From IMG/VR virus record IMGVR_UViG_3300049736_000614, positions 1-22,647 of that record: a DNA stretch of 22,647 nucleotides. One strand, written 5' to 3'. Made by a program: the position numbers and the translations under genes. Source of the stretch: a virus. The notes below the pieces were generated by a model. The model did no database searches. It had not been told where the DNA came from and worked only from the letters and a program-made list of their open reading frames with translations. Below are positions 1,848 to 19,769 of the stretch, in pieces. Numbering within the stretch: the first letter of the stretch is position 1; every line of letters starts with the position of its first letter.

Positions 1848-2498
1848 TTATGATATTTTCATATCTCTCACAAAATCATAAAACTCTTGTCTAGTATTTA
1901 TATCTTGTTTATCGAGAAAGGCCCCACTCATTCTGGCTGTCTTCATGGTACTATCATGCTTCACACCTCTCAACCCAGCACACGTATGATTCGCGGAAAC
2001 TAGTACTGCCACTCCTTTATTGTCCACACATACTTCATCGATATACTTGTGGATTTGCATAGTTAGATTTTCTTGTACTTGAGGTCTCCTAGAAAACCAC
2101 TCAACTATACGATTTAACTTACTTAAACCAATAACCTGACCATCCTTACCCGGTATATAAGCAACGTGTGTTTGACCAATGAAGGGTAAATGATGATGTG
2201 AACAGAAAGAGTTAGTTTTAATATTACCTTGAAATACTAGACCATCATACTGATCCACATTGTCAAATGTTGTTATGTTTGGTGGCTCATCATAACACCC
2301 AACAGCAAGATCATTCACGAAGGCTTTCGCAACTCTTCGTGGTGTATCAGCACTGTTAGGATCAGATCTCCAATCAAACCCTAAGGCATCCATATACTTT
2401 TCATATGCTTTAGCCGCATTCTCAATAATTTCTTCTTTTTCCTCCTTCGTTCTAGGATGGTTTCCATTTGCGAAAGGTAATTTAAAATCTGGACTCAT
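1848..2498 (-). CDS. folE: GTP cyclohydrolase I
   Basis: FolE converts GTP to 7,8-dihydroneopterin triphosphate, which feeds both folate and 7-deazaguanine synthesis. The 216-aa protein is the usual length for a type IA enzyme. The zinc ligands are visible as C99 and H102 (SFCSHHHLPF) and C173 (ANHTCAGLRGVK). The core segments IGLSKLNRIVEWFSRRPQ and the C-terminal MKTARMSGAF are also typical. It is transcribed alone on the minus strand, facing the 599-aa gene across a 59-base divergent gap. QueD and QueE follow on the plus strand at 4389 and 5093, so 7-deazaguanine supply is a more likely role than folate. The upstream region is AT-rich (TATAATA-like box) with no Shine-Dalgarno. The identification is very secure. 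Confidence 0.96.
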   Translation of the reverse strand: MSPDFKLPFANGNHPRTKEEKEEIIENAAKAYEKYMDALGFDWRSDPNSADTPRRVAKAFVNDLAVGCYDEPPNITTFDNVDQYDGLVFQGNIKTNSFCSHHHLPFIGQTHVAYIPGKDGQVIGLSKLNRIVEWFSRRPQVQENLTMQIHKYIDEVCVDNKGVAVLVSANHTCAGLRGVKHDSTMKTARMSGAFLDKQDINTRQEFYDFVRDMKIS

Positions 2499-2542
2499 AT
2501 AAATATTATAACATATACATCTCTTTAATTCAAGATAAATAT

Positions 2543-2550
2543 CATAAATA
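2543..2550 (+). promoter_or_regulatory. Late-promoter-like box upstream of the 599-aa gene
   Basis: CATAAATA differs by one base from the T4 late promoter box TATAAATA. It ends seven bases before the ATG at 2558, in the divergent gap with folE. No Shine-Dalgarno is visible. Confidence 0.4.
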
Positions 2551-2557
2551 ATATAGT

Positions 2558-4357
2558 ATGAAGTTTAAAGACATGGTGAAACTGACAGCGAATGAACAAT
2601 CACTAAAAAGAGTGAGACTCAGAACTGACCCGAAACAAAAACATTCACTACAAAACGCAACTGCATATGAAGGATATGTTATTGAGGAAGATGAAGGTAT
2701 GATCAGAGTGATGATGATCGCGCCAGACGAAGCTAACAACATTCAACAATTCGACCCGGAGCAACTTGAACCATGTGGTCAACGCACTTTAGATGATTTT
2801 AAAAACTTCGCGTTGAATTATATAATGCAAATCGGTAAGTGTGACGAAACAGATGTGACACATCACAACATATTGAACGCCAGCGACATACAACATTTGG
2901 AATCTTTTTTGAAGGAACAAGGAGTTGAGCATGATGAATTTGTAAAAATACTCAAACTATACATAATGTCAGATGGACTGTACAACGAGGGGTTGCTGTC
3001 TAACGTTGGTAACGCGTTGGGTACTGGTCTAGCGAAGCTCAAAAAAGCAGGTAGTGACATGAAGAACGATTTCCAGTCCGGCTTCAACACTGGTTATCAA
3101 AACCAGTCACCCACCATCACACCACCTCCAACCACAACCACATCTACTCCTGTTGGTCCAACAGGGCCCGCGGTGAGCGATCAACAATTAGGTACATCGG
3201 AAAAACCTGGTGGGTTGTTAGGTGCTATTGATAAAGCTGTAGGTACTATAGACAGTATCAAGAATGTATATAAAAATGGTGCAACAATAATACCAGTACA
3301 AGGAGCCACATACTATGATCAAAAAAATAGACCTCATAAATTTGGAGAGATAACCACCGGGTTCAGCAACGGTAATCCTGGTTATTTTGAATTTGATCAT
3401 ATTGACGCAGACGAAAACAGAAGACTGAGACTTTTTGGTCAGGCCAAGAACTCTGGAGATCGATCCAATTTCAACTCGAGTATACCATTAACAATAAAGT
3501 TCGAATATGATGAAAAGGATCAACCCGCGTCTCAACCAGCTCAACCGGTTAATGAGAATTTAAAAACAATAGAACATCTGATATACGGTCAATTGAATGA
3601 ATACAAAAGCCGTCGCGAACAACAAAAATCAAAATTTGGTCGAAAAACAAGAGACCGGCGGATGACGAACAACAGTATATCTCAAGTGAAAGGTGATAAA
3701 CAAGTCACAAAACTACAGAGCATTGTTAAAAAATATCTCGGCAAAGAGATGAATGCTGATATAGCTGCTGACATGGTGAAAGACAAGAACATGTTACTAG
3801 ACGCCATGAAAATCGTTGATCCGGAGCTTGGAGCGGAAAGACAAGGCAAGTTTGGTAGACAAGAAGATGGTTCCATGGATGTGTCTGATTGGGAAGAAAT
3901 CAAAGAACAAGCCACTCTACAAACCGTCAAACAATTCGCGAACACACTAGGTATCAACAATGTAGATCCTAGCAGGTTGGAAAATCTAGCTAACAAATGG
4001 TCTCAATTTATATCGGCAATCAATACCGCCGGGCTGGGCAATCTCTACAAACCCAAACAAACATCAGACCCGGAAACCGAACCGGAGGAAGATCCAGAAG
4101 AGATCTCACCCAAAGGGAACGTCGGGCAAATATACGGTTATCTAGTGCTGTCAGATCCCAACAACATTGACAGCCCTTTCAAGATTATTTCACGTAGTCA
4201 ATATAAAAACAACAAAGTGAAAGGGAAAAAGAAATCTGACAAGCCCAAAACATCTGTACGTGACCCTAAAACCGGTCGATTCGCAGCTGGTAACCAATCT
4301 GGGGTTCAATTTGCTGAAAGTGTAAACAATCTGAAAAAACTAATGTCTGGTAATTGA
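2558..4357 (+). CDS. Unassigned 599-aa phage protein, probably virion-associated
   Basis: I do not recognise a family. The N-terminal ~70 residues are charged and contain a possible small beta domain (YEGYVIEEDEGMIRVMMIAP). A helical region follows, then GNALGTGLAKLKKAGSDMKN, a Thr/Pro-rich linker at about residues 185-205, a second compact segment, another Pro/Gln linker (QPASQPAQPV), a basic stretch rich in Lys/Arg/Gln, an acidic Pro-rich segment (about 505-525) and a lysine-rich tail containing RDPKTGRFAA. This architecture of several small blocks joined by disordered linkers suits an internal or injected virion protein, but that is inference. It starts at ATG 2558, downstream of a late-like box, and is followed 31 bases later by queD. 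The coding call is certain and the function unknown. Confidence 0.85.
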   Translation: MKFKDMVKLTANEQSLKRVRLRTDPKQKHSLQNATAYEGYVIEEDEGMIRVMMIAPDEANNIQQFDPEQLEPCGQRTLDDFKNFALNYIMQIGKCDETDVTHHNILNASDIQHLESFLKEQGVEHDEFVKILKLYIMSDGLYNEGLLSNVGNALGTGLAKLKKAGSDMKNDFQSGFNTGYQNQSPTITPPPTTTTSTPVGPTGPAVSDQQLGTSEKPGGLLGAIDKAVGTIDSIKNVYKNGATIIPVQGATYYDQKNRPHKFGEITTGFSNGNPGYFEFDHIDADENRRLRLFGQAKNSGDRSNFNSSIPLTIKFEYDEKDQPASQPAQPVNENLKTIEHLIYGQLNEYKSRREQQKSKFGRKTRDRRMTNNSISQVKGDKQVTKLQSIVKKYLGKEMNADIAADMVKDKNMLLDAMKIVDPELGAERQGKFGRQEDGSMDVSDWEEIKEQATLQTVKQFANTLGINNVDPSRLENLANKWSQFISAINTAGLGNLYKPKQTSDPETEPEEDPEEISPKGNVGQIYGYLVLSDPNNIDSPFKIISRSQYKNNKVKGKKKSDKPKTSVRDPKTGRFAAGNQSGVQFAESVNNLKKLMSGN

Positions 4358-4375
4358 CTTCCGGTACAAAAGTTA

Positions 4376-4383
4376 CTATAATA
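4376..4383 (+). promoter_or_regulatory. Promoter-like box upstream of queD
   Basis: CTATAATA contains a -10-type TATAAT and ends five bases before the queD ATG at 4389. The spacing matches the late-like boxes elsewhere in the window. There is no Shine-Dalgarno. Confidence 0.35.
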
Positions 4384-4388
4384 GATGT

Positions 4389-5090
4389 ATGTTTACAAGT
4401 ACAAAGATAATTGAACTGGGTAGCTGCGCGTTCCGACAACCTCAGGCAGATTCCCATTGCAGATTTTTACATGGTTACAGACTCACTGCTAAATTTTGGT
4501 TCAGTGCCAAACACCTAGATCAAAACAATTGGGTTGTTGATTTCGGTGGATTGAAAGGTCTGAAAAAATTGATGCAGAATCAATTCGATCATACAACATG
4601 CATCTCTCAGACCGACCCTAAGCTGGATGTGTTCAAAAAATTGAATGAAGCCGGTGTATGTGATTTGAGAATCATGGATGGAGTGGGTATCGAGAAATTT
4701 GCAGAGTGGTGTCACATAGTTGCAGACAATTATGTTGATGAGCTGACCGATGGTAGATGCAATTGTGTCAAGGTTGAAGTGTTTGAACATGAGAACAATT
4801 CAGCCATTTTCGAGATGTGGAACTCTTCAACTTCTGGAACACAATACATGAACGACAAAGCAAATGAGATTGAACAAAATCTACCATCTGCAGAAGAAGT
4901 TGCAGAAGATATCGCGACAGCAGTTGATAACAAGCAACAGACATCACAGGAAGAGGAAGCACCCCCAGAAGCATCACATAATGACGCTCCAGAACAAGCA
5001 GAGAAACGTTCTTTATTCAACACTGAAAAAACTGTCAACAAGTGGGTGAACCCCAAACATAAAAAAACAACAAACAGCTGGTTATTTTAA
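4389..5090 (+). CDS. queD: QueD-like 6-carboxytetrahydropterin synthase with acidic C-terminal extension
   Basis: QueD converts dihydroneopterin triphosphate to 6-carboxy-5,6,7,8-tetrahydropterin, the second step of 7-deazaguanine synthesis. Residues 1-145 carry the fold: the catalytic Cys in CRFLHG (C24, H28), the WVVDFGGLK segment, the Asp-His pair in QFDHTT (D67, H68) and a C-terminal glutamate (VEVFEHEN). The metal site is unusual. The canonical HGH is HGY (Y30), and the first ligand, normally in an FxAAH segment, is not in place; H23 directly before C24 is a candidate substitute. Residues ~150-233 form a low-complexity acidic then basic tail absent from standard QueD (about 120-150 aa). 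queE begins two bases after the stop, so the two genes are coupled. A paralogous pterin synthase activity is possible, but the neighbours argue for QueD. Confidence 0.85.
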   Translation: MFTSTKIIELGSCAFRQPQADSHCRFLHGYRLTAKFWFSAKHLDQNNWVVDFGGLKGLKKLMQNQFDHTTCISQTDPKLDVFKKLNEAGVCDLRIMDGVGIEKFAEWCHIVADNYVDELTDGRCNCVKVEVFEHENNSAIFEMWNSSTSGTQYMNDKANEIEQNLPSAEEVAEDIATAVDNKQQTSQEEEAPPEASHNDAPEQAEKRSLFNTEKTVNKWVNPKHKKTTNSWLF

Positions 5091-5092
5091 AT

Positions 5093-5857
5093 ATGAAAAA
5101 AATAGATACATTAAATATTTCAGAGGATTTTTATTCTGTACAAGGAGAAGGTAAAACCAGTGGAGAGCCTGCGTATTTCATCAGGCTCAAAGCGTGTAAC
5201 TTGATGTGCGGCGGGCGAGACGGTAGTCTGGTCAAGTCCGGAGATGCTACCTGGTGGTGTGACACAGAATATGTGTGGCGCAAAGGTCTAGAGAAACCGT
5301 TTCAATATCTTGTTGATCGATGGAAAGAAGAAAACATCCTGGAGTGGGTCAAAACTGGTCGGGTCAATTTGATATGGACTGGTGGGGAACCATCGATACC
5401 TAAAAACCAGCGAGCGATCTCTAATTTTCTGGATTGGTTTGAGGAAGAACATCAACCTCCTGTGTTGTTCAATGAGATTGAAACTAATGGTACGATATAT
5501 ATTGATGACCCGCTCTTCAATCATCTGAAACAAATCAATTGCTCTGTCAAACTTAATAACAGTGGTATGGACGCTAGCCGGAGAATTGTACCAGCGGCTC
5601 TAGAGAGAATCATGAGTCACTACAATTACTGGTTCAAGTTTGTGATAAGCACCGAGAGTTGCTTAGATGAAATAGAACGTGATTTTATAAAACCTTATGG
5701 TATACCACCCAAGCGAGTGTTGATGATGCCCGGCTTAGACAAGCAAGAACATTACCATGAACGTACCAAGTTTTGTATGGAGATGGGTAAAAAACATGGA
5801 TACACAGCTCTCACTCGTTTGCATGTGAGTGCTTGGGATCAAACCACTGGCGTATAA
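5093..5857 (+). CDS. queE: QueE-like 7-carboxy-7-deazaguanine synthase (radical SAM)
   Basis: QueE is a radical SAM enzyme that rearranges 6-carboxytetrahydropterin into 7-carboxy-7-deazaguanine (CDG). The protein opens with the family signature FYSVQGEGKTSGEPAYFIRL, followed by CNLMC (C35, C39) and CDTE (C56). The canonical CNLxCxxCDT core is therefore interrupted by about 14 extra residues between the second and third cysteines (C-x3-C-x16-C). WTGGEPSIPKNQ is the GGEP motif for SAM binding, and FNEIETNGT is the usual ETNG strand. Its 254 aa are slightly longer than the common 210-245. It follows queD by two bases, so the substrate producer and user are co-transcribed. No queC is present in the window. 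Confidence 0.92.
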   Translation: MKKIDTLNISEDFYSVQGEGKTSGEPAYFIRLKACNLMCGGRDGSLVKSGDATWWCDTEYVWRKGLEKPFQYLVDRWKEENILEWVKTGRVNLIWTGGEPSIPKNQRAISNFLDWFEEEHQPPVLFNEIETNGTIYIDDPLFNHLKQINCSVKLNNSGMDASRRIVPAALERIMSHYNYWFKFVISTESCLDEIERDFIKPYGIPPKRVLMMPGLDKQEHYHERTKFCMEMGKKHGYTALTRLHVSAWDQTTGV

Positions 5858-6915: not shown

Positions 6916-7602
6916 ATGAGAATAGCTGTCACAGGAACTGCATGTGTTGGTAAAAGCACGTTTGTAAATGATTTTTTAAACAACTGGTCCGATATATACT
7001 CCAAACCGGAGTCATCATATCGTGACATGTTGAAAGAGAAAAAATTAGAACATAGCAAACAAACAAACAAAGAGACTCAACAAGCCATCCTAGATTACAT
7101 GGTGGATCAACACATGAAATACACAAAAGATGACCATGTGATTTTTGATAGATGTCCATTAGACAACTTGGTGTACTCGCTATATTCATATGACAAAGGC
7201 TTGTCAGATATAGATGAAGAGTTCATTGAATCATGCATACCAATAATCAAAGAAGCCATGAGATTCATCGACATAGTGTTATACATTCCCAAGCTAGGTG
7301 ATGTGAAGATTGAAGATGATGGTAACAGAGAGACTGATCCAGAATTTGTAGATGAAATTGACAAAATGTTGATGCAGATTGAACACCAAGCGTTACAACC
7401 CGCTAGTGTGTTTTTTCATACAGACGACCGCCCGGCATTCATACGAATCTCCGGAGAACCTCGAGAGAGAATACGTCAAGCCAGTTTGTACATAACAGAT
7501 GATGGTGGGAGTTACACCGATCAAGAGAGTGAGATTGACTGGGAAGAACTTGCCGGGTTGGGAATTCAACCAGAGGACGTCTTTCCTGGAGGAAAACTTT
7601 GA
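6916..7602 (+). CDS. P-loop nucleoside/nucleotide kinase-like ATPase (NadR/AAA_28 type)
   Basis: This 228-aa protein starts with a beta strand and Walker A loop, GTACVGKST (residues 7-15), where K13 and S14 would bind ATP phosphates. HVIFDRCPLDNLVYSLY (about residues 74-90) resembles the DR-containing segment of nucleoside kinases and of the NadR/Ttd14-type AAA_28 group. An Arg-containing segment (EPRERIRQASLY, ~182-193) could be the lid. The last 30 residues are acidic (QESEIDWEELAGLGIQPEDV) and look like an added tail. Possible substrates are nicotinamide riboside, deoxynucleosides or deoxynucleoside monophosphates. The NMNAT-like gene at 1070 makes the first plausible. Start ATG 6916 follows an AT-rich leader without Shine-Dalgarno. 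The P-loop kinase class is secure and the substrate is not. Confidence 0.75.
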   Translation: MRIAVTGTACVGKSTFVNDFLNNWSDIYSKPESSYRDMLKEKKLEHSKQTNKETQQAILDYMVDQHMKYTKDDHVIFDRCPLDNLVYSLYSYDKGLSDIDEEFIESCIPIIKEAMRFIDIVLYIPKLGDVKIEDDGNRETDPEFVDEIDKMLMQIEHQALQPASVFFHTDDRPAFIRISGEPRERIRQASLYITDDGGSYTDQESEIDWEELAGLGIQPEDVFPGGKL

Positions 7603-8929: not shown

Positions 8930-8934
8930 GTTAT

Positions 8935-8942
8935 TATTTATA
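8935..8942 (-). promoter_or_regulatory. Exact T4-type late promoter box upstream of the fibre-like gene
   Basis: On the minus strand TATAAATA ends five bases before the ATG at 8929. This would give the virion-protein gene its own late transcript starting at its first codon. Confidence 0.5.
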
Positions 8943-8947
8943 TAAGA

Positions 8948-10579
8948 TCATAAGTATTGCTCTCCAAACGTTATCAATTGTTGTGTTTTGTTGGTCCACA
9001 GATCAGATTGAAATGTTTTTAGTTTCCCGGAATTAACGTAAGCTCGATCGATTGCTTCAAAATTCACCCCAGGACACAACTCAGATGGGATCGCTTCCGG
9101 TTGAAAATCTAGTCCATTGACCACTGGGTCATAGCGCTCGTTTATCTCGTTTACCGTCAAGTTGTTGTGTTTCAACTCGAAGTGTTTGTACCATAATTGC
9201 TTCAATGCGTAATATTTTTTGTTGATAGACTGTAGATGCATGAAACCGTATTTTTTAGTTCTTATACACGGCTTATTTAGATTAACCTTTGGTGTTCTGG
9301 GTGTGTGGTACGTGGGCAAACGTCTAATGTCTTGTGATTTAGGTACCGGTTCAATTTGATAATTGTCTAGAAACAATAGAAAATTTCTAAAATTGTATTT
9401 GTAACTAGGATCTGTTCTGTAATGACCATTCACTCCGGTGACATTGTATTGGTACAAACTCAACGTGTGGTCTATTGTGACATTCAACAATTTATCAAAA
9501 TCATCGATCATCGTTTGCGTGACCAGTTCATCACAATCGATACTCAACACATGAGAAGCGTCTGTGTGTTTGGAAAAATTAAACATTGCGCCTCGGGAAA
9601 TCGACTCATGTGTGTCACTGATTGGATTTTCATTGATTATTTTCGCCTGAGAACCAAACAAATCACGTATCACATCAACAGTAGAATCTCTGCTGTTGTC
9701 ATTGAAGAACAACCACCGATCAACTGGTATGTTTTTCCAATTGTCATGCACCACTGGCAACAGGTCTTGTTCATCTCTGACCAACACATGAGCATCAACC
9801 GTCCGGTTTTTTGTGATGTTCACACTGCCCATGTTGTTGATTATTTGATCAGATCGTTCATGAGTTTCATTTCGCATCACCTCTATCTCCTCCAATCGTT
9901 GAGGTTCAGTGTATTGGTACAACATGGTCGCAGACTGCCATTCACAATGCTCTCTCAATCGTCGAGTGGTACAATCAACATCCCCAGTGACCGACACATG
10001 ATTATGCTTGATGAGCACCCATGGTAAAAAATATTTCAACCCGGCACCTTGAAACACATCATTCAACCACGTGTCAACATACAGATGCTTCCACTCTTGT
10101 AGATATCGTCCGAACATGTCAATGTATTTTCTAGGTATGAAACTGTTTGTCGCTAACACCTCTGCAGCAGTTTTACCTCGTTGTATACCGTCCGCGCAAT
10201 GTATCAAATACAATCCCGCTGGTTGAAAAACTCGCTCGATTGATTTCAATACATGTACATCCCAGCTCGGGGTCATGAACTCAAAATCATCACCCACCAT
10301 GGCGATCACATCCTCAGTAGTGTTTTCAGCCATGATGTTCCACAGTTTACCCAAACCTGGAAAAGTATCAGCTACCGGGAATGTTATTTTTTTAACATAT
10401 GTTTTGAAACGTGCATGAGCATCAACAAGAGCTGATGATTCATGATCGTCAGAATCGATCCCTAGATACAACACGAAATTGTTCAAGTCATCAGCAGTCC
10501 GTTCAATTGATCTGATCAGACATTCGATGTCGTCGGGTCGGTTGCTGGTGGGACATAACAATGCTATCTTACGATTCAT
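8948..10579 (-). CDS. Two-domain GT-A glycosyltransferase
   Basis: The frame opens at 10633, but the first 18 residues overlap the upstream gene heavily and do not resemble the fold. I place the start at ATG 10579 (MNRKIALLCPTSNRP), giving 543 aa. Domain 1 (about 1-230) begins with a GT-A strand and has VIAMVGDDFEFMTPSWD as its Asp-pair, nucleotide-sugar-binding region. Domain 2 (about 265-540) restarts with a second GT-A domain: AHVLVRDEQDLLP, then WLFFNDNSRDSTVDVIR, and a DxD in HVLSIDCDELV, like GT2/GT92-type transferases. It overlaps the stop of the GT-B gene upstream by 11 bases and is followed by the fibre-like gene. It probably transfers sugars in two steps to a glycan or phage protein. 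Donor and acceptor are unknown. Confidence 0.8.
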   Translation of the reverse strand: MNRKIALLCPTSNRPDDIECLIRSIERTADDLNNFVLYLGIDSDDHESSALVDAHARFKTYVKKITFPVADTFPGLGKLWNIMAENTTEDVIAMVGDDFEFMTPSWDVHVLKSIERVFQPAGLYLIHCADGIQRGKTAAEVLATNSFIPRKYIDMFGRYLQEWKHLYVDTWLNDVFQGAGLKYFLPWVLIKHNHVSVTGDVDCTTRRLREHCEWQSATMLYQYTEPQRLEEIEVMRNETHERSDQIINNMGSVNITKNRTVDAHVLVRDEQDLLPVVHDNWKNIPVDRWLFFNDNSRDSTVDVIRDLFGSQAKIINENPISDTHESISRGAMFNFSKHTDASHVLSIDCDELVTQTMIDDFDKLLNVTIDHTLSLYQYNVTGVNGHYRTDPSYKYNFRNFLLFLDNYQIEPVPKSQDIRRLPTYHTPRTPKVNLNKPCIRTKKYGFMHLQSINKKYYALKQLWYKHFELKHNNLTVNEINERYDPVVNGLDFQPEAIPSELCPGVNFEAIDRAYVNSGKLKTFQSDLWTNKTQQLITFGEQYL

Positions 10580-11462
10580 TGTATATATTAATGTATTCTG
10601 ACACAATATCAACTGGTCGCCAGAACGTCTCAAACCATTGTTTAGATTTTCTACCTTCCTCTATCAAATAATCCCGACCACGGTCGATCATGTCCACCAG
10701 ATAATCTTGTAACCAACCAACATACACACTATGAAACGGCAACGTGTCACTGCCAGAGCACGTGGCTAGTATCTCTTGAACACGTGAATCAATCCAACAT
10801 ATTGTGGGCTTGCCAAGTGCCAGACCCTCTAATGAACTCAAGTGATAGCTAGGTGTTACACATTCATCTACCACGATGTCTGCACGTGCTTTGCGGGTCA
10901 AACACTCATGGTAATCGACCTCTTTGATGGTGTCTACCATGATGGACCCTCTATAATGCTCTACTAATAAATTGAACACTGAACCATGCTGCTCCACACC
11001 CTTCCTTTGCCACGTACCATACTCGTTGCTGGATGGTGAAAACGATATTGACACTCGTTCAGTCGGAGTGTTGTCAAGTGTATATGATGAGAGATCAACT
11101 ATGTTGCGCGCCGTTGTGCAGTTTTCATACGCGCGCAGACCTGCATGGTAGTGTGGTATGACTAATTGTCTAACGTCGCTTGGAATTTTGCCTCGCTGCT
11201 CCCATATGTGCAAATTGTCTGGTGGGCTGTGATACTGTAATATGTGAGTTTTTTTATCAAACTTATGATACACGTCCAGATCAATTGTGTTGTGCCAATG
11301 AACCACATCCGCCCGGGACATCTGATACATGTCAGCCTTCAGATCATATTTTGTGTCTCTTCTGATCCAACTAGAATCATGATCAGAATATTTGTTGATT
11401 GCTGTTGATAGATGACCAGGAGCTCCAGAGATGCTGGACCGACTCACGTGAACAATTCTCAT
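10569..11462 (-). CDS. GT-B glycosyltransferase-like protein
   Basis: This 297-aa protein starts at ATG 11462, with its A shared with the TGA of phoH, which indicates coupling; the TTG one codon upstream is less likely. It opens with MRIVHVSRSSISGAPGHL, a GT-B N-terminal strand and Gly-rich loop. ADVVHWHNTIDLD follows, as in GT4-type enzymes. The C-terminal half has the donor-site pattern: ADIVVDECVTPSYHLSSLEG followed by LALGKPTICW, where the glutamate before GLALGKP matches the conserved EGLALG element. The length is short for GT4 (usually 350-400). It is probably cytoplasmic. The partner gene downstream is the double GT-A enzyme, so the two may act sequentially on one acceptor. The fold is well supported and the specificity unknown. 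Confidence 0.8.
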   Translation of the reverse strand: MRIVHVSRSSISGAPGHLSTAINKYSDHDSSWIRRDTKYDLKADMYQMSRADVVHWHNTIDLDVYHKFDKKTHILQYHSPPDNLHIWEQRGKIPSDVRQLVIPHYHAGLRAYENCTTARNIVDLSSYTLDNTPTERVSISFSPSSNEYGTWQRKGVEQHGSVFNLLVEHYRGSIMVDTIKEVDYHECLTRKARADIVVDECVTPSYHLSSLEGLALGKPTICWIDSRVQEILATCSGSDTLPFHSVYVGWLQDYLVDMIDRGRDYLIEEGRKSKQWFETFWRPVDIVSEYINIYNES

Positions 11463-12181
11463 CAACCATCAATTTGGTCAAGCTGCTTCACAATGAACTG
11501 TAGAATCTCGCTACGTACGATGTCGGTCTCATCAAACTTGAACGTGTATATGTTTTGCTCTTCACTCGCCACGTTGTCAAAACATTTTTGTATTGGCCCA
11601 AAACCGCTTCGATTTCCAATGTCGCTCTGCCGAGTGTCACCCACAATCACAAACTTGCTACCCTCACCAAATCTAGTGAGAATGGTTATCAACTCTCCAC
11701 GGGTCAAATTTTGTGCCTCATCCACTATCACGAAGCTGTTGTTGAAAGTGAGACCACGTACAAAGTTGACCGGTACACAATGCGCGAACCCACGTCCCAG
11801 CAGCTCTTTTCTCACCGTGACTCCAACCAGCTCGTCTAGTTTCTCCACCAACGGCATGCTCCATGGACCGAACTTGTCATCCACCTCACCTGGCAGGCTT
11901 CCCATTTTTTGACTGGCACTCTCCACCACGCTACGAATGTACACTATCTCATCCACCGCATGTTTTTTCAGCAACGACACCGCTCCGTACACTGCCAGGT
12001 ATGTTTTGGCAGTACCAGCAGGCCCGTCCACAAACAACATTTTACTGTCCGGCTTCATCATTAAACTGGTGAAACTTCTGTGTTTGTCGTTCGATTTGAA
12101 GTTACGTTCAATTTTAAAATCTAAATCCCAGGACAATGATCCGATGTCGTTGGGTCGAGTTCGTGTCTTTTTACGTGGCAT
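11462..12181 (-). CDS. phoH: PhoH-like ATPase
   Basis: This 239-aa protein carries VDGPAGTAKT (Walker A, residues 51-60), the conserved EIVYIRSVVESASQKMGSLP segment that is hallmark PhoH, and VIVDEAQNLT (Walker B, D154-E155). FVIVGDTRQSD follows as sensor I. PhoH-like genes are widespread in marine T4-like phages. The domain also forms the helicase half of PhoH2-type proteins, but the phage role is not established and a phosphate-starvation link is uncertain. It is the first gene of the minus-strand block leading into two glycosyltransferases and the fibre-like gene. It faces the RgpF-like gene across 34 bases. AATAAGTA lies 7 bases upstream of the start on the minus strand (12189-12196). The family identification is very secure. 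Confidence 0.93.
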   Translation of the reverse strand: MPRKKTRTRPNDIGSLSWDLDFKIERNFKSNDKHRSFTSLMMKPDSKMLFVDGPAGTAKTYLAVYGAVSLLKKHAVDEIVYIRSVVESASQKMGSLPGEVDDKFGPWSMPLVEKLDELVGVTVRKELLGRGFAHCVPVNFVRGLTFNNSFVIVDEAQNLTRGELITILTRFGEGSKFVIVGDTRQSDIGNRSGFGPIQKCFDNVASEEQNIYTFKFDETDIVRSEILQFIVKQLDQIDG

Positions 12182-12202
12182 GTGTAATTACTTATTCTTC
12201 AC

Positions 12203-12210
12203 AATAAATA
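12203..12210 (+). promoter_or_regulatory. Late-promoter-like box upstream of the RgpF-like gene
   Basis: AATAAATA ends exactly five bases before the ATG at 12216, within the 34-base divergent gap with phoH. There is no Shine-Dalgarno. Confidence 0.4.
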
Positions 12211-12215
12211 ATTCA

Positions 12216-13181
12216 ATGACCACCAATTATTACGTCAGACATCTGGATCATTCCAGTAGCGAGCAATTGTGTCTGAACGTTTATAATTTTTTAAACAATA
12301 GTGAAGAGATGCCAGAAACCGTATATGTTGTAGAACATGTGATGCTGAAGCAGCAATACAAAGACATACTGAACAAATTAATAAACACGACGTACATTAA
12401 TCCGGATAAATTTTTAAACATTTATTCTAATTGTTCCGCGCCTGTAGAAATTACATTCACGACAAATATAGTCACCCTCTCTCCTGCTCTCGGTGATCAA
12501 AATAACAGTATCGCAGTGGTGTTGTATGTATATTATCCTGAACTATTAAGAGAGTTCATTGAATATATAAATATTTTTTCTAACAATTATAAAATTGATG
12601 TATATCTATACATATGTGAGAATATTCCAGATAAAAATATACAAGATATAATCAGCTCATACAGTAACAATATTAATTACAATTACGAACATACACCTAA
12701 CCGTGGTCGCGACATATTGAGTTTCTTGTCATTTATACAAACAAAAAAATATGAAAAATACAAATACATATGTAAACTACACACTAAAAAAACAAACTAT
12801 TTAGATCCAGAATGGAGAACAAATTTATTGAAATATTTGTTAAATGTTAATGTATTTAATAATACAATCAAACCTCAACTAAACTCACGACAACCCAAAA
12901 TTCAATCTTGTTCAAAATATAATTTGATAGAAAACTACAATCAACACAACAACAATTACAGCTCTATGTACAATCTATGTAAAACAATAAAACATAATTT
13001 ATATACCCATAACCGTTATGAATTCATCGCCGGTTCTATGTTTTGGATAAATCAAACCTATGCTTCTAATTTACATAAACTAATCGAACATGTTGATATA
13101 CATAATATGTTCGAGTTAGAGCCCATACCACCAGACGGTACTATCGCTCATGCATGGGAACGACTATTTTACAATCTTTAA
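12216..13181 (+). CDS. RgpF-like (rhamnan synthesis F) glycosyltransferase
   Basis: The open frame extends back to 11937, but that part is antisense to phoH. ATG 12216, placed after the AATAAATA box, gives a 321-aa protein. The family pattern is visible: IAVVLYVYYPELLREFIEYI (about 110-130), a beta strand ending YICE, NRGRDILSFLSF, YKYICKLHTKKT, and EFIAGSMFWI near the C-terminus. These elements recur in the rhamnan synthesis F family, which builds rhamnose-rich surface polysaccharides. The gene is strikingly AT-rich (27% GC on hand count of bases 12361-12420), with many Asn, Ile, Lys and Tyr codons, unlike the phoH block beside it (45% at 11701-11760). It opens the glycan island and is followed by a WbsX fusion, its frequent genomic partner in bacterial O-antigen loci. 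Confidence 0.8.
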   Translation: MTTNYYVRHLDHSSSEQLCLNVYNFLNNSEEMPETVYVVEHVMLKQQYKDILNKLINTTYINPDKFLNIYSNCSAPVEITFTTNIVTLSPALGDQNNSIAVVLYVYYPELLREFIEYINIFSNNYKIDVYLYICENIPDKNIQDIISSYSNNINYNYEHTPNRGRDILSFLSFIQTKKYEKYKYICKLHTKKTNYLDPEWRTNLLKYLLNVNVFNNTIKPQLNSRQPKIQSCSKYNLIENYNQHNNNYSSMYNLCKTIKHNLYTHNRYEFIAGSMFWINQTYASNLHKLIEHVDIHNMFELEPIPPDGTIAHAWERLFYNL

Positions 13182-13203
13182 TATAGATATACCGATACAT
13201 TAT

Positions 13204-13211
13204 AATAAATA
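13204..13211 (+). promoter_or_regulatory. Late-promoter-like box upstream of the WbsX fusion
   Basis: AATAAATA ends exactly five bases before the ATG at 13217. There is no Shine-Dalgarno. Confidence 0.4.
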
Positions 13212-13216
13212 AATTT

Positions 13217-15280
13217 ATGTACACGTTACAAGATAACGAACGGTTAATAGTCTACTGTAAACAGACATCAGATATACCGATATACTTTCAACAGTACGTT
13301 GCCGGTCAACAACATTTATCAACAATTTATACAAATAACCAAAACACATTACTACCGTTAGAAAACATTGTTGTTACAGCAGCAACTTCTTTACAAGAAA
13401 TCACTTCTTTACATTTAACTGATATTTCGGTCAATACTAAATTACTGTGGTTAGAACTACCCCCGTGCGAGGCTGTTGAAAATCCGGCAAAGATTATTGC
13501 ATACTATTTACCACAATACCACACCATTCCAGAAAACGACAAGTGGTGGGGAAAAAATTTTACAGAATGGACAAACGTTAGAAAAGCCAAACCAGTTTTC
13601 CCTGGGCATGAACAACCCAAGATTCCATTAGAATATTATGATCTAGCCGATCCAACAACAATCCATGATCAGATTGAACTTGCAAAAAAATACAATATTC
13701 ACGGGTTTTGCTTTCATTACTATTGGTTCGCCGGTAAACGATTGTTAGAACTACCCATAGAAAATTATCTTCAAGATGCTTCTCCACAAGCAGATTTCCC
13801 ATTTATGTTATGTTGGGCCAATGAAGACTGGACTCGTACATGGGATGGTAAATCCGGGGAGATCTTGATCGGACAAAAACACTCCGTTGCTGATCATCGT
13901 CGAGTCGCAAAAGATCTGTTAAGATATTTTCAAGATCCGCGGTATATAAAGGTAAACGGAAAACCGGCATTGATTATTTATCGAGTGGAATTAATTAAGG
14001 AGTTACAAAAATTTAAAGATATTGTAGAAAAAGAAGCAGCTAAGGTAGGTATACCGGGTATACATTTAATTAGCACCACCGCTAGTTGGCGATTCGGCCC
14101 GGATCTTAGCGGCACGGTACAACATGTATGTGATGGTGAAGCAGAATTCCCACCTCATACCAAATTCGATAATGCAATAAAACGAGTAAAGGTGGATACA
14201 TCTACAGACTTTACCGGATTCGCATACGACTATGTACATTATAAAAACCGACATATACAAGGTTATGATGAATTGTTAAACACTAAACTAGAAACTGCGT
14301 ATTATCCTGGATGTTTCCCTGGATGGGACAACACGGCCCGCAGACCAGACAGCTCTCATATATGTGTGAACAACTCCCCGGAACAATTTGAAGAATGGGT
14401 CACCGCTGGTATACAATATACAAATAAAAAAAACACCTCACAAGATAATTTTGTTTTCATAAACGCATGGAACGAATGGGCGGAAGGCGCGGTAATAGAA
14501 CCAACAGTAACAGAAGGTTATAGTTACGCTCATGCCTTGTCCAAGGCTTATAATAAATCAAAACAAGATAGAATCACAGCCTATCAAATATATTATGAAG
14601 ATGATCAACTACCTAACATCCTGCCCGGTTTTCAAGCTCATTACAACAAAAAATCGACAGTGTATCTTGAGAGTGGTATAATCAACGATCTTGTTAGACG
14701 TAAAAAACATCTAAATAGTGATTGGTTTGGTGTATTTTCATGGAAAGCGCGAGATAAGGTCATCGGGTTTTCTCATGAACGTATACAAGAATGTATAGGG
14801 AGCAATAGACCGTCCTTCGAAGGCGGGTGTAGGAATTATGATATACTCTCAATATCTAGAGAGAACGCGAAGGCTGGACTCCCCCGGGGATCCCATAACC
14901 CACGGGAACTTCACGTGGAGCACTGGCCTGTTTTTGATGCATTGATTAATAAAATGTACAAACAAGGTATAATATCACGAAAACCTTATTTCGATAAAGA
15001 CATGAACTTTATATATTGTAATTGTTTCTTGGCCAAAACACACATATATGAAGATTTTGTAAAAACAATATTACGGCCAGGTATAAACTTATTTAAAAAT
15101 GATAAAGACCTGTACAATCTAGGCACTAACAACCTACCTAGAACTAAACATGGAAAACCACCACAACGTTTTACAGATCATACCGGGTATGAAGAATGGC
15201 CACATATACCGTTTGTGTTAGAGAGATTAATCAATGTGTATGTTGAGTTGAATGACTTGAAGGTTGGTTGGATATTATAA
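13217..15280 (+). CDS. WbsX-family glycosyltransferase with extra N- and C-terminal regions
   Basis: The 687-aa protein has three parts. Residues 1-90 are an unassigned region. Residues ~92-450 are WbsX (Glyco_tran_WbsX, GH99-like fold): IIAYYLPQYHTIPENDKWWG, FTEWTNVRKAKPVFPGHEQP, GFCFHYYWFAGKRLLELP, MLCWANEDWTRTWDG and NAWNEWAEGAVIEP are all typical. Residues ~465-687 are a further domain that I cannot name. It contains a possible nucleotide-sugar-like region, SDWFGVFSWKARDKVIG, an HxE-rich centre (RELHVEHWPVFDAL) and NCFLAKTHIYEDF, reminiscent of capsule-type transferases. WbsX proteins occur in O-antigen and capsule clusters; their exact reaction is poorly known. Fusion to another glycan enzyme suggests two consecutive steps on one polymer. 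The WbsX part is secure and the tail function unknown. Confidence 0.87.
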   Translation: MYTLQDNERLIVYCKQTSDIPIYFQQYVAGQQHLSTIYTNNQNTLLPLENIVVTAATSLQEITSLHLTDISVNTKLLWLELPPCEAVENPAKIIAYYLPQYHTIPENDKWWGKNFTEWTNVRKAKPVFPGHEQPKIPLEYYDLADPTTIHDQIELAKKYNIHGFCFHYYWFAGKRLLELPIENYLQDASPQADFPFMLCWANEDWTRTWDGKSGEILIGQKHSVADHRRVAKDLLRYFQDPRYIKVNGKPALIIYRVELIKELQKFKDIVEKEAAKVGIPGIHLISTTASWRFGPDLSGTVQHVCDGEAEFPPHTKFDNAIKRVKVDTSTDFTGFAYDYVHYKNRHIQGYDELLNTKLETAYYPGCFPGWDNTARRPDSSHICVNNSPEQFEEWVTAGIQYTNKKNTSQDNFVFINAWNEWAEGAVIEPTVTEGYSYAHALSKAYNKSKQDRITAYQIYYEDDQLPNILPGFQAHYNKKSTVYLESGIINDLVRRKKHLNSDWFGVFSWKARDKVIGFSHERIQECIGSNRPSFEGGCRNYDILSISRENAKAGLPRGSHNPRELHVEHWPVFDALINKMYKQGIISRKPYFDKDMNFIYCNCFLAKTHIYEDFVKTILRPGINLFKNDKDLYNLGTNNLPRTKHGKPPQRFTDHTGYEEWPHIPFVLERLINVYVELNDLKVGWIL

Positions 15281-15287
15281 TTTAAAA

Positions 15288-16220
15288 ATGAAAAATATAT
15301 TAATAACAGGAGGTCTTGGATTCATAGGTAGTAATTTTACAAAATACGTGTATGAAAAATATGATTACAATATATGGAACATTGACAAGGTCACATATGC
15401 CGCAAACCCAGGAAACATCCCTGACAATATAAAAAATTCTGAACGTTATAACTTCGTTCAATGCGATATAAATGAAACTTCTAGACTAAATTCTATTGTA
15501 AAACAACATAATATAAATTATATTGTCAATTTTGCCGCGGAAAGCCATGTTGATAACAGTATCAACGACTCTAACCCGTTTGTACATACAAACATAACCG
15601 GTACACATTCTCTACTAACACTACTACATGACTGCTCCAGTGTGGAAAAATATCTTCAGGTATCAACTGATGAGGTGTACGGTAGTTTATCAGAGCAATG
15701 CCCAGCTTTTATTGAGCAATCCGCAATAAAACCTAACAGCCCCTACTCTGCCAGTAAAGCTAGTGCAGATTTATTATGTCGGAGCTTCCATGAAACATTC
15801 AAATACCCCGTTTTAATCACTCGTTGCTCTAACAATTATGGACCAAATCAACATGAAGAAAAACTAATTCCATTGATGATTAAAAATGCTAAAGCCGGGA
15901 AAAATCTTCCGGTGTACGGTGATGGTCGAAACATTCGTGATTGGATACATGTTAATGATCATTGCTCCGGTATTGATACGGTCTTACATACCGGTACTAT
16001 TGGTGAGATATACAACATCGGTGGTAATAATGAAATTCGAAACATTGATATTGTGAAGACAATTTTGAGCTTGTTAAACAGAGATGAAGATCAAATTGAA
16101 TACGTTGAAGACCGTTTAGGTCATGATTGGAGGTACGCGATAAATAACAACAAAATTCAAACACAATTAGGCTGGTCTCCTAGCTATGATTTCATTTCCG
16201 GTTTGAAAAGCCTATTATAA
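15288..16220 (+). CDS. dTDP-glucose 4,6-dehydratase-like NAD-dependent sugar enzyme
   Basis: The start at ATG 15288 (MKNILITGGLGFIGSN) follows a TATAAT (15276-15281) that lies in the tail of the WbsX gene. The 310-aa protein is an extended short-chain dehydrogenase. It has the Rossmann motif GGLGFIG (8-14), the Thr-Asp-Glu catalytic triple in STDEVYG (T127, D128, E129) and YSASK (Y153, K157). RNIRDWIHVNDHC is the usual substrate-side element. The TDE triple separates RmlB-type 4,6-dehydratases from epimerases. It ends about 25-40 residues earlier than typical RmlB (about 340-360), at GWSPSYDFISGLKSLL, so the last helix is shortened. No RmlA, RmlC or RmlD is in the window, so precursors must come from the host or from elsewhere in the phage genome. 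The gene fits dTDP-6-deoxysugar supply for the RgpF-like enzyme. Confidence 0.88.
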   Translation: MKNILITGGLGFIGSNFTKYVYEKYDYNIWNIDKVTYAANPGNIPDNIKNSERYNFVQCDINETSRLNSIVKQHNINYIVNFAAESHVDNSINDSNPFVHTNITGTHSLLTLLHDCSSVEKYLQVSTDEVYGSLSEQCPAFIEQSAIKPNSPYSASKASADLLCRSFHETFKYPVLITRCSNNYGPNQHEEKLIPLMIKNAKAGKNLPVYGDGRNIRDWIHVNDHCSGIDTVLHTGTIGEIYNIGGNNEIRNIDIVKTILSLLNRDEDQIEYVEDRLGHDWRYAINNNKIQTQLGWSPSYDFISGLKSLL

Positions 16221-16225
16221 CATTC

Positions 16226-17077
16226 ATGAAAAAAGAGTTACAATCACTAGATAGAATACTCAAAAATTCTAGAGTAAAAAGAAACAATTTTGTCAATAAT
16301 TTAATGGATGTAGATAATATTAAAGTCTTAGTATGGACATTTGCAAAAACTGGGACAACAACTCTAGCCAGTAGTTTTCAACAAAATATATCCGGAACTA
16401 AAAGCTTTAAAAATGTTACACACTCTCATGGTGAACCATGTTGGTTTAATAACATATCACAAGAATTAAAACAGATAGGGTTTACATTTAAAATGCTAAT
16501 TGAATATATAAATAGTAAAGGTATACGACCTGTCGTTATCCAATCTTATAGGTGCCCGGTTGATACACATATTTCCGCACACTTTCATAAAATACAAAAA
16601 AACAATAAGTTAAGTGTTAATACAGATGGACTATCTAAATATGCTTCCTGCCTGGCACCACAAGCGTTGAAACCTATAGATCTTTTCACTGGTCAAGAGA
16701 GTTATATTAATTATTTAGAAAAAACATTTAACGGAATATGGACTCATAATTTTGATAAAGTAAGGGGTTATGGGTTTCATCAAGAACCTGATTATGATAT
16801 TTTATATACAACAACCGATTATATTAAAAAATTACCAGATAATATAAAACTAATCAAGGAACTAAAAGAGTATCATAATCTAAAAATTACAAAACGTAAC
16901 TTAACATATACAAAAGAGCCCGGTACATATTCTAACTACAAAAAAACACTCACTTTTGAACGCAAAGTCATTAACCACATATACAACATACACTCGAAAC
17001 CGTTAAACTTTTTTTATACAAAGGATAAAATAAAATATATGCTACAATCTGCTTTGAATAAATATAGTTGTATCTAA
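16226..17077 (+). CDS. Sulfotransferase-like protein 1
   Basis: This 283-aa protein carries the 5'-phosphosulfate loop FAKTGTTTLASSF (residues 39-51), which binds the PAPS cofactor. It also has the 3'-phosphate element YRCPVDTHISAHF, with R109 and S117 at the canonical spacing of eight. Such enzymes move sulfate from PAPS to sugars or other acceptors. There is no transmembrane segment, so it is probably cytosolic. The gene is AT-rich like the rest of the island. It starts six bases after the RmlB-like stop and ends 12 bases before the next sulfotransferase. The acceptor cannot be read from sequence; it lies in a glycan locus, so a carbohydrate is likely. Distinguishing a true sulfotransferase from a P-loop relative would need structure prediction. 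Confidence 0.72.
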   Translation: MKKELQSLDRILKNSRVKRNNFVNNLMDVDNIKVLVWTFAKTGTTTLASSFQQNISGTKSFKNVTHSHGEPCWFNNISQELKQIGFTFKMLIEYINSKGIRPVVIQSYRCPVDTHISAHFHKIQKNNKLSVNTDGLSKYASCLAPQALKPIDLFTGQESYINYLEKTFNGIWTHNFDKVRGYGFHQEPDYDILYTTTDYIKKLPDNIKLIKELKEYHNLKITKRNLTYTKEPGTYSNYKKTLTFERKVINHIYNIHSKPLNFFYTKDKIKYMLQSALNKYSCI

Positions 17078-17088
17078 AAAGAGCTATT

Positions 17089-17961
17089 ATGAAAATAAAA
17101 AAACAAAAAAATAAAAAAACCTCTGCAGAATGGAACGGGTTACTAAAGTGTAATGATTACATTGTAGATTGGTCGCCTAAATCTGGTTGTACTACAGTAA
17201 AAAAGCTATGGTTTCGCTACCTGGGTGTATTAAATGAAGCATTATCAATGAAAAAAATAATGAACGGCAGAGTGGTTACAAATTGGGTACATAATTTCAC
17301 ACCAACGTTTTTTGAAAGATATGGTAAAATTACATCAGAAGATCTAAAAAACGATTCGTATGTCAAAATAAAACATGTGAGAAACCCGTACGATAGAGTT
17401 GTGAGCTCCTACATTCATGCATGTAAGCACCCCGGGTTATTTGAAAATTGTAGAGAATATGACCCATCGTTCGTTGATTTTTTAAATCTATTATATACAG
17501 GAGAATTACATATGGATGCAGGAGGGATGCATTGGAGGATTCAAAACCATAATCCAAGTATAGAGTATGATGAGATAATCAAATTAGAAATCCTAGATGA
17601 TGAGATAATTAGATTAAGTGAAAAATACAATATAGACTTTAAAGTGAGTGATAAAACAAAACGCTCACCTCATCATGTTAAAAAGAAAGCTTATGTAAAA
17701 TCTTTTTTTGACATTCCTGCATCCAGTGTGCGGAGCTATATAAGTGATCATCGCAGTGCCCCGGTCTACGACTCATTTTACAATGACGAAATAAAAGATA
17801 TTGTATACGATATATATAAACTAGATATAGACTCATATGATTATAAATATGAGAACCGGGTTGATGATGCAGATGGAGAGAGTGAAACAGACCCAGACAT
17901 ATTAGACCCATTTACAGTCAACCCTCAAACAATAATGCAGGAAGCCATGGGAAACACATGA
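17089..17961 (+). CDS. Sulfotransferase-like protein 2
   Basis: The start at ATG 17089 gives 290 aa; a TTG frame start at 17068 would overlap the preceding gene. The PAPS loop is clear at SPKSGCTTVKKLWFRY (about 29-44), and the 3'-phosphate element KHVRNPYDRVVSSYIH is near perfect (R98, S106). This PKSGCTT plus RNPYDRxxSxY arrangement is that of the sulfotransferase family 2 type (Golgi-like carbohydrate sulfotransferases and their bacterial relatives). The last 40 residues are acidic (DDADGESETDPDILDPF) and look disordered. Its stop overlaps the ATG of the third copy by four bases (ATGA, 17958-17961), which indicates coupling. It is the most canonical of the three. The acceptor is unknown. 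Confidence 0.82.
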   Translation: MKIKKQKNKKTSAEWNGLLKCNDYIVDWSPKSGCTTVKKLWFRYLGVLNEALSMKKIMNGRVVTNWVHNFTPTFFERYGKITSEDLKNDSYVKIKHVRNPYDRVVSSYIHACKHPGLFENCREYDPSFVDFLNLLYTGELHMDAGGMHWRIQNHNPSIEYDEIIKLEILDDEIIRLSEKYNIDFKVSDKTKRSPHHVKKKAYVKSFFDIPASSVRSYISDHRSAPVYDSFYNDEIKDIVYDIYKLDIDSYDYKYENRVDDADGESETDPDILDPFTVNPQTIMQEAMGNT

Positions 17962-18629
17962 TAGTTTCAGATGTAAAAAAGTTCATAATTTTTCAGCCAT
18001 GGAAATGTGCGTCAACTACATTGTATATACGGCTAAAAAAATATGATAGCGAACATTACCCACAAGATATTTACTATAATGAAGTTTTAAAAAAATATAG
18101 TCATAAACACATACGCTTGTCTGACTTCATACAACTTCCGGAAGCCTCTCTAGATTACACAAAAATATGTTATGTTCGAAATCCATATGACAGAATCTAC
18201 GCTGGTTATTTACAACTCTTAAAAGAAATGAAACAAGGTAATGATATACCCATGATAAATCATATAAAAGAAGGGTTTAATACATATCTAAAATATTACA
18301 CATTACCCGTATACGAGAGTACAGACGAATTTTGGGGAGGTAAGTTGCATGAATATACACACTTTGAAAATAAAAAATATGTAGATTGTATAGGTTATGT
18401 TGAAAGATTTGAGAAAGATTTCAAACAAATTTTCAATAAACTAGGCATTAACGATACTGAAACTATTTCTGGTAACATAAAAAATAAACCAAAGACTATG
18501 TGTAATCCACATAACATGAAACGATGTAATTATAAATATATTGATAAATATACACAAGAAGATATCGAAATTGTGAATTATATTTTTAAAGATGATTTTG
18601 AAATTTTCAATTATAAAATAATAAAATGA
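17958..18629 (+). CDS. Sulfotransferase-like protein 3 with changed PAPS site
   Basis: This 223-aa protein overlaps the previous and following genes by four bases each, so three genes are coupled in series. The phosphosulfate loop is QPWKCASTTLYIRL (residues 13-26), and the 3'-phosphate element is CYVRNPYDRIYAGYLQ. The serine expected eight residues after R74 is alanine (A82), whereas copies 1 and 2 keep it. CGYV-type residues later (DCIGYVERFEKDFKQIFNKL) match the C-terminal family element that binds the substrate side. The gene is very AT-rich (23% GC on hand count of 18481-18540). It may have reduced PAPS affinity, or use a compensating residue. Family membership is well supported and activity less so. 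Confidence 0.75.
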   Translation: MIVSDVKKFIIFQPWKCASTTLYIRLKKYDSEHYPQDIYYNEVLKKYSHKHIRLSDFIQLPEASLDYTKICYVRNPYDRIYAGYLQLLKEMKQGNDIPMINHIKEGFNTYLKYYTLPVYESTDEFWGGKLHEYTHFENKKYVDCIGYVERFEKDFKQIFNKLGINDTETISGNIKNKPKTMCNPHNMKRCNYKYIDKYTQEDIEIVNYIFKDDFEIFNYKIIK

Positions 18630-19078
18630 ATAATAAAGAAATAATAGGTTTTACTGCAGGTAATTTCGACTTGTTGCACCCAGGATATATTTATACTTTT
18701 GAAGAAGCAAAACGTCATTGTGACCGATTTTTAGTTTTCCTTCACACCGATCCATCAGAAACACGTAACACAAAATATAAACCAGTCGTACCGCTATATG
18801 AACGATACAAAACCTTGATGTCTATTCGGTTTATAGATGATGTGTACATGTACAGTACAGAAGAACAGTTATATGGTTTAATCAAGTTTCACAAACCTGA
18901 TATTAGAATATTAGGTGAAGATTATATAAATGATGATGGCACAGCCAAGTCTTTCACCGGTGATGATCTACCACCACGAGTTATATATACAACCAGGTCT
19001 CATGGGTGGTCCACAACTCGAATCAAAGACTTGATTACCAAACAAACCATAAAACAGAACCCAGGTATAGTTAAATAA
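18626..19078 (+). CDS. TagD-like cytidylyltransferase with an altered HxGH motif
   Basis: This 150-aa protein has the length and layout of glycerol-3-phosphate cytidylyltransferase-type enzymes, which make CDP-alcohols or nucleotide-linked precursors for surface polymers. The opening strand GFTAGNFDLLHPGYIYTFEE would normally end in HxGH; here it is HPGY (H18 to Y21), so the second catalytic His is missing. RYKTLMSIRFIDDVYMY and RILGEDYIND are the usual middle elements, and STTRIKDLI is the C-terminal ISTTxI/R motif. It overlaps the sulfotransferase 3 stop by four bases. In context it probably activates a glycan building block. Loss of the second His could lower activity, or mark a variant that uses Tyr. 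Possible relatives are HldE-type or ethanolamine-phosphate cytidylyltransferases. Confidence 0.82.
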   Translation: MNNKEIIGFTAGNFDLLHPGYIYTFEEAKRHCDRFLVFLHTDPSETRNTKYKPVVPLYERYKTLMSIRFIDDVYMYSTEEQLYGLIKFHKPDIRILGEDYINDDGTAKSFTGDDLPPRVIYTTRSHGWSTTRIKDLITKQTIKQNPGIVK

Positions 19079-19082
19079 GGAC

Positions 19083-19769
19083 ATGCAACAACAATTGATA
19101 CCAGGGTATATGGCCACAAGAGTTAATCTGGTTGACATGGTGCCTGCTCAGGTAACATCGACACCATCTGTCACGGACTACAAACAACTACAGCAATTGG
19201 TAACCGCCCATGAACCTTCCAATCCTCTATTCAAACCAGAAGAACAATACAAAGATCATATTAAATCTCGATGGGAGCAACGACAAACAAAATTTACCAA
19301 CATAAATCAGATACCGTTACATACCCCGGTTATAATATACACCCCACCCACTGATCCCGTCGCGCAAGCCGCATTCATCAGACTAGAAAATGTGTACCAG
19401 GTTGTACACCCCACAACCGCCATGATATATGGTTACGCAGAGGGTATATTTTGTGATGCTAGAACACCACCAACATCCTTGGTCTTACCAAGCAACATAC
19501 AATTGTATTATGGTAACGTAACAAGTTCAAAATTGATCTCTAGAATATGGTCAGATCACAATTATGATGTGAGAAGTTACAAGATATATTCTCCCGGGAA
19601 CGAAGCCCAGTTAACTGCTCAGTTCCCCGGTTACTGGCCGAACGTGCTCACCTCACTAGCGCATGATTTAAAATCTAAACATGAACAACCCCCAGTGTTG
19701 TTGGGAATAGACAAAGGCATGCTAGACACATTTGATCAACAAAATTTACGTGAATTTTGTTTCATTTAA
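19083..19769 (+). CDS. Unassigned 228-aa protein
   Basis: No family is recognised. The N-terminal 60 residues are polar and Gln-rich. The middle is a compact segment with alternating hydrophobics (VIIYTPPTDPVAQAAFIRLE). The C-terminal half includes MIYGYAEGIFCDARTPPTSL and RSYKIYSPGNEAQLTAQFPG, which read as a folded alpha/beta domain. There is no transmembrane segment or clear catalytic motif. ATG 19083 is two bases after AAGG, too close for a good Shine-Dalgarno; the ATG at 19110 (MATRVNLV) is an alternative. Its composition is less AT-rich than the sulfotransferases, so the island's compositional edge may lie just before it. Its last eight bases overlap the end of the convergent glycosyltransferase. 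It is clearly coding, with function unknown. Confidence 0.75.
   Translation: MQQQLIPGYMATRVNLVDMVPAQVTSTPSVTDYKQLQQLVTAHEPSNPLFKPEEQYKDHIKSRWEQRQTKFTNINQIPLHTPVIIYTPPTDPVAQAAFIRLENVYQVVHPTTAMIYGYAEGIFCDARTPPTSLVLPSNIQLYYGNVTSSKLISRIWSDHNYDVRSYKIYSPGNEAQLTAQFPGYWPNVLTSLAHDLKSKHEQPPVLLGIDKGMLDTFDQQNLREFCFI

Follow-up and report, generated by a model that had tools for sequence, protein, structure and literature searches.

Among the viruses with described 7-deazaguanine genes, halovirus HVTV-1 and Cellulophaga phage phi38:2 have preQ1-type sets that encode FolE, QueD, QueE, QueC, and a QueF-type enzyme in compact clusters; DUF366 had no match in the parts of these genomes that were read. In HVTV-1, preQ0 genes and a QueF-like protein were reported at a time when no DpdA had been recognised, and the virus carries mainly dPreQ1, at approximately 30% of G (PMC6884629). 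Flavobacterium phage vB_FspM_immuto 2-6A (NC_055915; hereafter immuto) carries a single compact cluster in the order QueD-QueE-FolE-DpdA-formyltransferase-kinase-QueF, and the region read contained neither an annotated QueC nor a DUF366 match. Cellulophaga phage phiST carries FolE-QueD-QueE together with a DpdA3-like protein, with no QueC or DUF366 match in the 16.8 kb read.

The phage group described here has the same FolE, QueD, QueE, QueC, and QueF-type set as HVTV-1 and phi38:2, and the DpdA-formyltransferase-kinase-QueF order of its 222-kb contig G009 agrees with that of immuto. However, its genes are dispersed, QueC/GATase and DUF366 are additions relative to immuto, and the phi38:2 transglycosylase belongs to another subfamily (phrog_887), which was not found in this group.

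The window and its large relatives

The window, i.e., the whole stretch of DNA analysed, is a linear fragment of viral DNA, 22,647 bases in length, for which no end repeats are known, and it had no match among isolated phages in a megablast search. The following genes are relevant to the pathway:

1848–2498, minus strand: FolE, GTP cyclohydrolase I (PF01227, E 3e-47; phrog_2197, E 1e-58)
4389–5090, plus strand: QueD, 6-carboxytetrahydropterin synthase (PF01242, E 1e-17; phrog_2389, E 3e-33)
5093–5857, plus strand: QueE, 7-carboxy-7-deazaguanine synthase, radical SAM (phrog_2076, E 7e-46)
20621–21214, plus strand: DUF366 protein (PF04017, E 7e-22)

FolE, which converts GTP to dihydroneopterin triphosphate, has the motifs CSHHH and HTCAGLRG in its sequence and was 91–93% identical to its closest relatives. 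QueD, which carries approximately 90 additional amino acids at its C-terminus, was of the phage subtype (SHC..LHGY); all six large relatives described below and phi38:2 share this subtype. QueE showed 35–40% identity to the QueE proteins of Cellulophaga phages and haloviruses, those of HVTV-1 and phi38:2 being its closest relatives in GenBank. The DUF366 protein scored 78.3 bits against PF04017 (cut-off, 29.9) over positions 6–183 of the 184-position profile, and its start at ATG 20621, not ATG 20561, agrees with that of most relatives. The Pfam and PHROG matches thus confirmed the four genes that an earlier note had read from the sequence. Its statement that the window holds neither QueC nor DpdA was also borne out by searches of the 22.6-kb fragment (phrog_887 and phrog_7068 for DpdA), which found no QueF or DpdA3-type protein there either. 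These absences are uninformative, because the record is a linear fragment and the genes span more DNA in the large relatives. The window extends 1.8 kb beyond FolE on one side and 1.4 kb beyond DUF366 on the other, indicating that it covers the middle of the pathway and that both ends are cut off.

Other genes of the window lie among these. A gene resembling thymidylate kinase (6916–7602; AAA_28/phrog_2107) is located near QueE, and in both immuto and G009 a related kinase gene separates DpdA from QueF. A kinase also adjoins the transglycosylase in CP220 and in phiST, although that of phiST belongs to another AAA family. The 6916–7602 product is possibly a nucleotide kinase with a role linked to the modified base. 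Positions 8948–20000, which lie between the genes for the base and DUF366, encode glycosyltransferase, WbsX, sugar-nucleotide dehydratase-like, sulfotransferase, and nucleotidyltransferase proteins; part of this block, which probably consists of surface-glycan genes, has a low GC content (30–35%).

Searches of viral contigs with DUF366 and QueE gathered 20 related records. DUF366 was found in 19 of these, including all but one of those detected only with QueE, and QueC was found in four, including G009. In wider searches, DUF366 was found in at least 494 viral contigs and the DpdA3-type transglycosylase in at least 525; since the contigs are related to one another, the co-occurrence of DUF366 with the pathway cannot be counted as independent events. 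The contigs closest to the window (G001, G003, and G005) carry the same cut-down gene set, and QueC, QueF, and the DpdA3-type gene were not found in them, all three being fragments of only 26–69 kb. In contrast, all six large relatives (G009, 222 kb; G063, 225 kb; G064, 209 kb; G056, 217 kb; G054, 193 kb; and G055, 158 kb) encode QueD, QueE, QueC, a class-II glutamine amidotransferase, DUF366, the DpdA3-type transglycosylase, and QueF, with FolE and the formyltransferase each present in five of the six. The gene order is collinear in most of these contigs: the amidotransferase/QueC block is followed after approximately 14–22 kb by FolE-QueD-QueE, after a further 10–18 kb or so by DUF366, and after another 8–15 kb or so by the QueF/formyltransferase/transglycosylase block, which in G009 is located elsewhere on the contig.

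Gat-QueC fusions occur in archaea and in phage 9g. In the large relatives, this fusion is split: QueC and the class-II glutamine amidotransferase are encoded separately in G009 (171139–172522) and in the other five contigs, adjoining each other in G009 and G056 and lying approximately 1–2 kb apart in the others. In the contigs whose sequence was inspected, QueC kept the motifs SGGxDS, VPxRN, and a GYWD or GFWD form of YPDC, and YxQxHxxE was also kept in G009. Relative to the motifs given in PMC13329287, an aromatic residue occupies the position of the Y of YPDC and a Tyr follows the first zinc cysteine, and the QueC proteins of G063 and G064 are without most of the zinc cysteines. QueF contained KSNC..QPDWG and RGGIDINP in five of the six large relatives, with G054 deviating, and a PurN-type N-L-H-P motif with a later Asp was present in most formyltransferases. 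G009 also encodes a second, short QueF-like protein at 50991–51497 (L038:10991-11497), with Gly at the position of the catalytic Cys (EFTFLGVKEQPDF); a homologue of this protein adjoins QueF in another locus (L290).

A divergent guanine transglycosylase

None of the related records matched the Pfam TGT family (PF01702), phrog_887, or phrog_7068, and the PHROG models do detect known phage DpdAs; an HMM built from 43 DpdA sequences and a scan for the DSGAF motif likewise gave no DpdA match in the group. These negatives were false, as revealed by profile–profile alignment, the only method that found a divergent transglycosylase family, and the reading that the group has no DpdA was dropped. When a DpdA alignment was compared with 164 protein families of G009 (approximately 330 comparisons), a single protein was picked out (8930–9730; phrog_19058), the alignment spanning DpdA from its DSGAF to its DSxSW region (hhalign). 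By itself this match was weak, with an uncorrected E of 3e-4 over the approximately 330 comparisons. The protein is, however, 44% identical to immuto gp206, which is annotated as "DNA guanine transglycosylase" in GenBank, and 44–45% identical to most of its matches in Campylobacter phages. Its AlphaFold model (266 amino acids; pLDDT 93.5) had TGT structures as its 39 best matches in the PDB (E 3e-8 to 1e-5), followed by 7UI4, the DNA preQ0 insertase DpdA. The matched TGT structures are larger, at 348–382 amino acids, and the DpdA3-like protein of phiST aligned with the model at TM-scores of 0.86/0.89. The predicted structure confirmed the G009 protein as a TGT-fold guanine transglycosylase, and we take its subfamily to be the DpdA3 type.

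In terms of gene neighbourhood, QueF was located near the transglycosylase in 74 of 80 loci (median distance, 569 nt), and a formyltransferase homologue was present in 38 of the 80, directly following the transglycosylase in 31. The family is labelled "unknown function" in PHROGs, and its members in CP220-like phages of Campylobacter (e.g., L354:5995-6771) are hypothetical proteins in GenBank. Naming phrog_19058 as a transglycosylase family would mend many phage annotations.

DUF366 in phages, bacteria, and archaea

The DUF366 model (pLDDT 88.9) showed a biotin/lipoate-protein-ligase fold, with 2ddz as its best Foldseek match (E 4e-13), followed by LipL1, BPL, and LplA (approximately 3e-6 to 1e-5). 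The window protein thus shares both the sequence family (PF04017) and the fold of P. horikoshii 2DDZ, and no recognised decarboxylase fold was detected in the predicted model. The conserved stretch GDDL..K(C/L)SVSI..H(T)GIN is reminiscent of the ligase signature, although the sequence similarity is weak, and the alignment of the invariant K128 in GDDL..KCSVSI with the ligase KKVSG motif was also weak (E 1.1). In an alignment of 49 DUF366 sequences, 22 invariant columns were common to phage and bacterial members. We found no functional assignment for DUF366 in the literature, and no homologue was detected in authentic isolated phages in a collection of 50,697 records. Besides murJ, secDF, fabI, and fliM, the record of Microcystis phage MaAM05 (MW495066.1; L058) contains a DUF366 almost the same as that of Vampirovibrio (L141); judging by its gene content, this record appears to be bacterial DNA submitted under a phage name.

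In bacteria, DUF366 immediately followed queC in 34 of 45 loci, and Desulfosporosinus and its relatives have the operon queD-queC-DUF366-queE-folE; in the class of Desulfosporosinus, each of the 15 loci examined had DUF366 together with queE-folE. Further bacterial examples are L114:9962-10525 and L408–L422, and DUF366 is next to queC in Gastranaerophilales. Among the genomes encoding DUF366, QueA was present in 33 of 33, QueD in 32, and QueF in only eight. QueF was found in 2 of the 23 genomes with DUF366 next to queC versus 6 of the 10 others (Fisher p 0.004). Among 83 genomes of the class of Desulfosporosinus, DUF366 was encoded in 39 and QueF, at scores above the cut-off, in 14, and no genome had both (p 5e-5, relatedness ignored), where absences from metagenome-assembled genomes may be assembly gaps. 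This mutual exclusion within one class is the pattern of one gene replacing another.

A replacement of QueD by DUF366 was ruled out, since QueD is present in 32 of the 33 DUF366 genomes. The idea that DUF366 is a strict substitute for QueF everywhere was also untenable, because phages, Vampirovibrio, and one Stahlbacteria genome carry both; it follows that DUF366 is not merely a spare QueF in phages. Furthermore, DUF366 occurs in Methanocaldococcus jannaschii and Methanosarcina acetivorans, in neither of which was QueA or QueF found, so that preQ1 formation is unlikely to be its sole role. As judged from its bacterial gene context, DUF366 belongs to the 7-deazaguanine pathway, and it is probably an unrecognised enzyme of that pathway. 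A more specific proposal, which we consider possible but somewhat short of probable, is that it is a ligase-fold 7-deazaguanine enzyme that replaces QueF in bacteria with QueA and without QueF and that may give a new DNA base in phages, where it might, for example, activate the carboxylate of CDG.

Proposed pathway and final base

The window very probably represents the middle of a 7-deazaguanine pathway for DNA modification whose genes form a complete but scattered set in uncultured tailed phages of one large group. From the relatives, we infer that its own phage, with a genome of roughly 200 kb, has QueC, QueF, and DpdA. FolE, QueD, and QueE would convert GTP to CDG, which QueC would convert to preQ0, probably with ammonia from the separate class-II glutamine amidotransferase, and QueF would reduce preQ0 to preQ1. 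The DpdA3-type transglycosylase would then exchange guanine in DNA for a preQ1-type base, and the PurN-like formyltransferase encoded beside it in many members may add a formyl cap to preQ1, whereas DUF366 would act at some step of the same pathway. The modified base presumably shields the phage DNA from restriction. Gene identities, the transglycosylase fold, several conserved motifs, and co-occurrence are established here, and from the genes we infer the identity of the final base. Since QueC and QueF are present, preQ1, or formyl-preQ1 where there is a formyltransferase, would be offered to the transglycosylase; as predicted from the gene set, preQ1 or formyl-preQ1 in DNA, and not CDG, is thus the most likely end point of the pathway, although the amidotransferase could lead to archaeosine or ADG instead of preQ1.

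The earlier note had proposed a DNA 7-deazaguanine pathway ending at CDG, and only the first half of this proposal is supported by the large relatives. If the pathway stopped at CDG, either the transglycosylase would insert dCDG or DUF366 would decarboxylate CDG to 7-deazaguanine, and the gene set of phiST and the co-occurrence of DUF366 with QueE would fit such an ending. However, the window's own genome is incomplete, and the search beyond it found both QueC and DpdA in six of six large relatives, so that the lack of QueC expected of a CDG subtype does not hold in them; QueF is present in the same six, and most catalytic motifs of QueC and QueF are intact. In bacteria, moreover, DUF366 is directly behind queC in most loci, where CDG must reach QueC. 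The ending at CDG was rejected once QueC, QueF, and the transglycosylase had turned up in the large relatives, and we regard it as extremely unlikely. The true counterpart of this idea appears to be phiST, where, given the genes read, the pathway may end at CDG. As for the suggestion that DUF366 performs the finishing step, its link to the pathway is upheld by the bacterial operons and its family membership by the PF04017 match, but nothing points to CDG decarboxylation, given the ligase fold, the lack of homologues in authentic isolated phages of the collection, and the lack of a DUF366 match in the phiST region read, where FolE-QueD-QueE and a DpdA3-like protein occur with no QueC nearby.

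It is also very unlikely that the genes serve to provide the host with preQ0 or preQ1 for tRNA queuosine while the phage DNA stays unmodified. The host TGT naturally uses preQ1, which these genes would yield, and raised host tRNA Q has been proposed for phages without DpdA (PMC6884629); nevertheless, these phages co-encode a TGT-fold enzyme that is related to an annotated phage DNA guanine transglycosylase and shorter than the matched TGT structures, and the group to which its Campylobacter-phage homologues belong is reported to be highly modified with dADG (PMC6884629). That DUF366 is a chance neighbour with no tie to the base pathway is similarly improbable. In the phages, several to approximately 20 kb separate it from the rest of the pathway genes, and co-occurrence alone proves little among mutually related contigs, but DUF366 sits inside the preQ0 operon of unrelated bacteria, excludes QueF in one bacterial class, and has its invariant columns in common between phages and bacteria.

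The preferred reading, a complete but scattered pathway leading to a preQ1-type base, corrects the tempting CDG-only interpretation of the window and points to a widespread group of aquatic phages whose dispersed DNA-modification pathway is missed by standard family searches. For DUF366, whose structure has been solved but for which we found no function in the literature, it also offers a specific, testable role in the preQ0-to-preQ1 step in bacteria without QueF.
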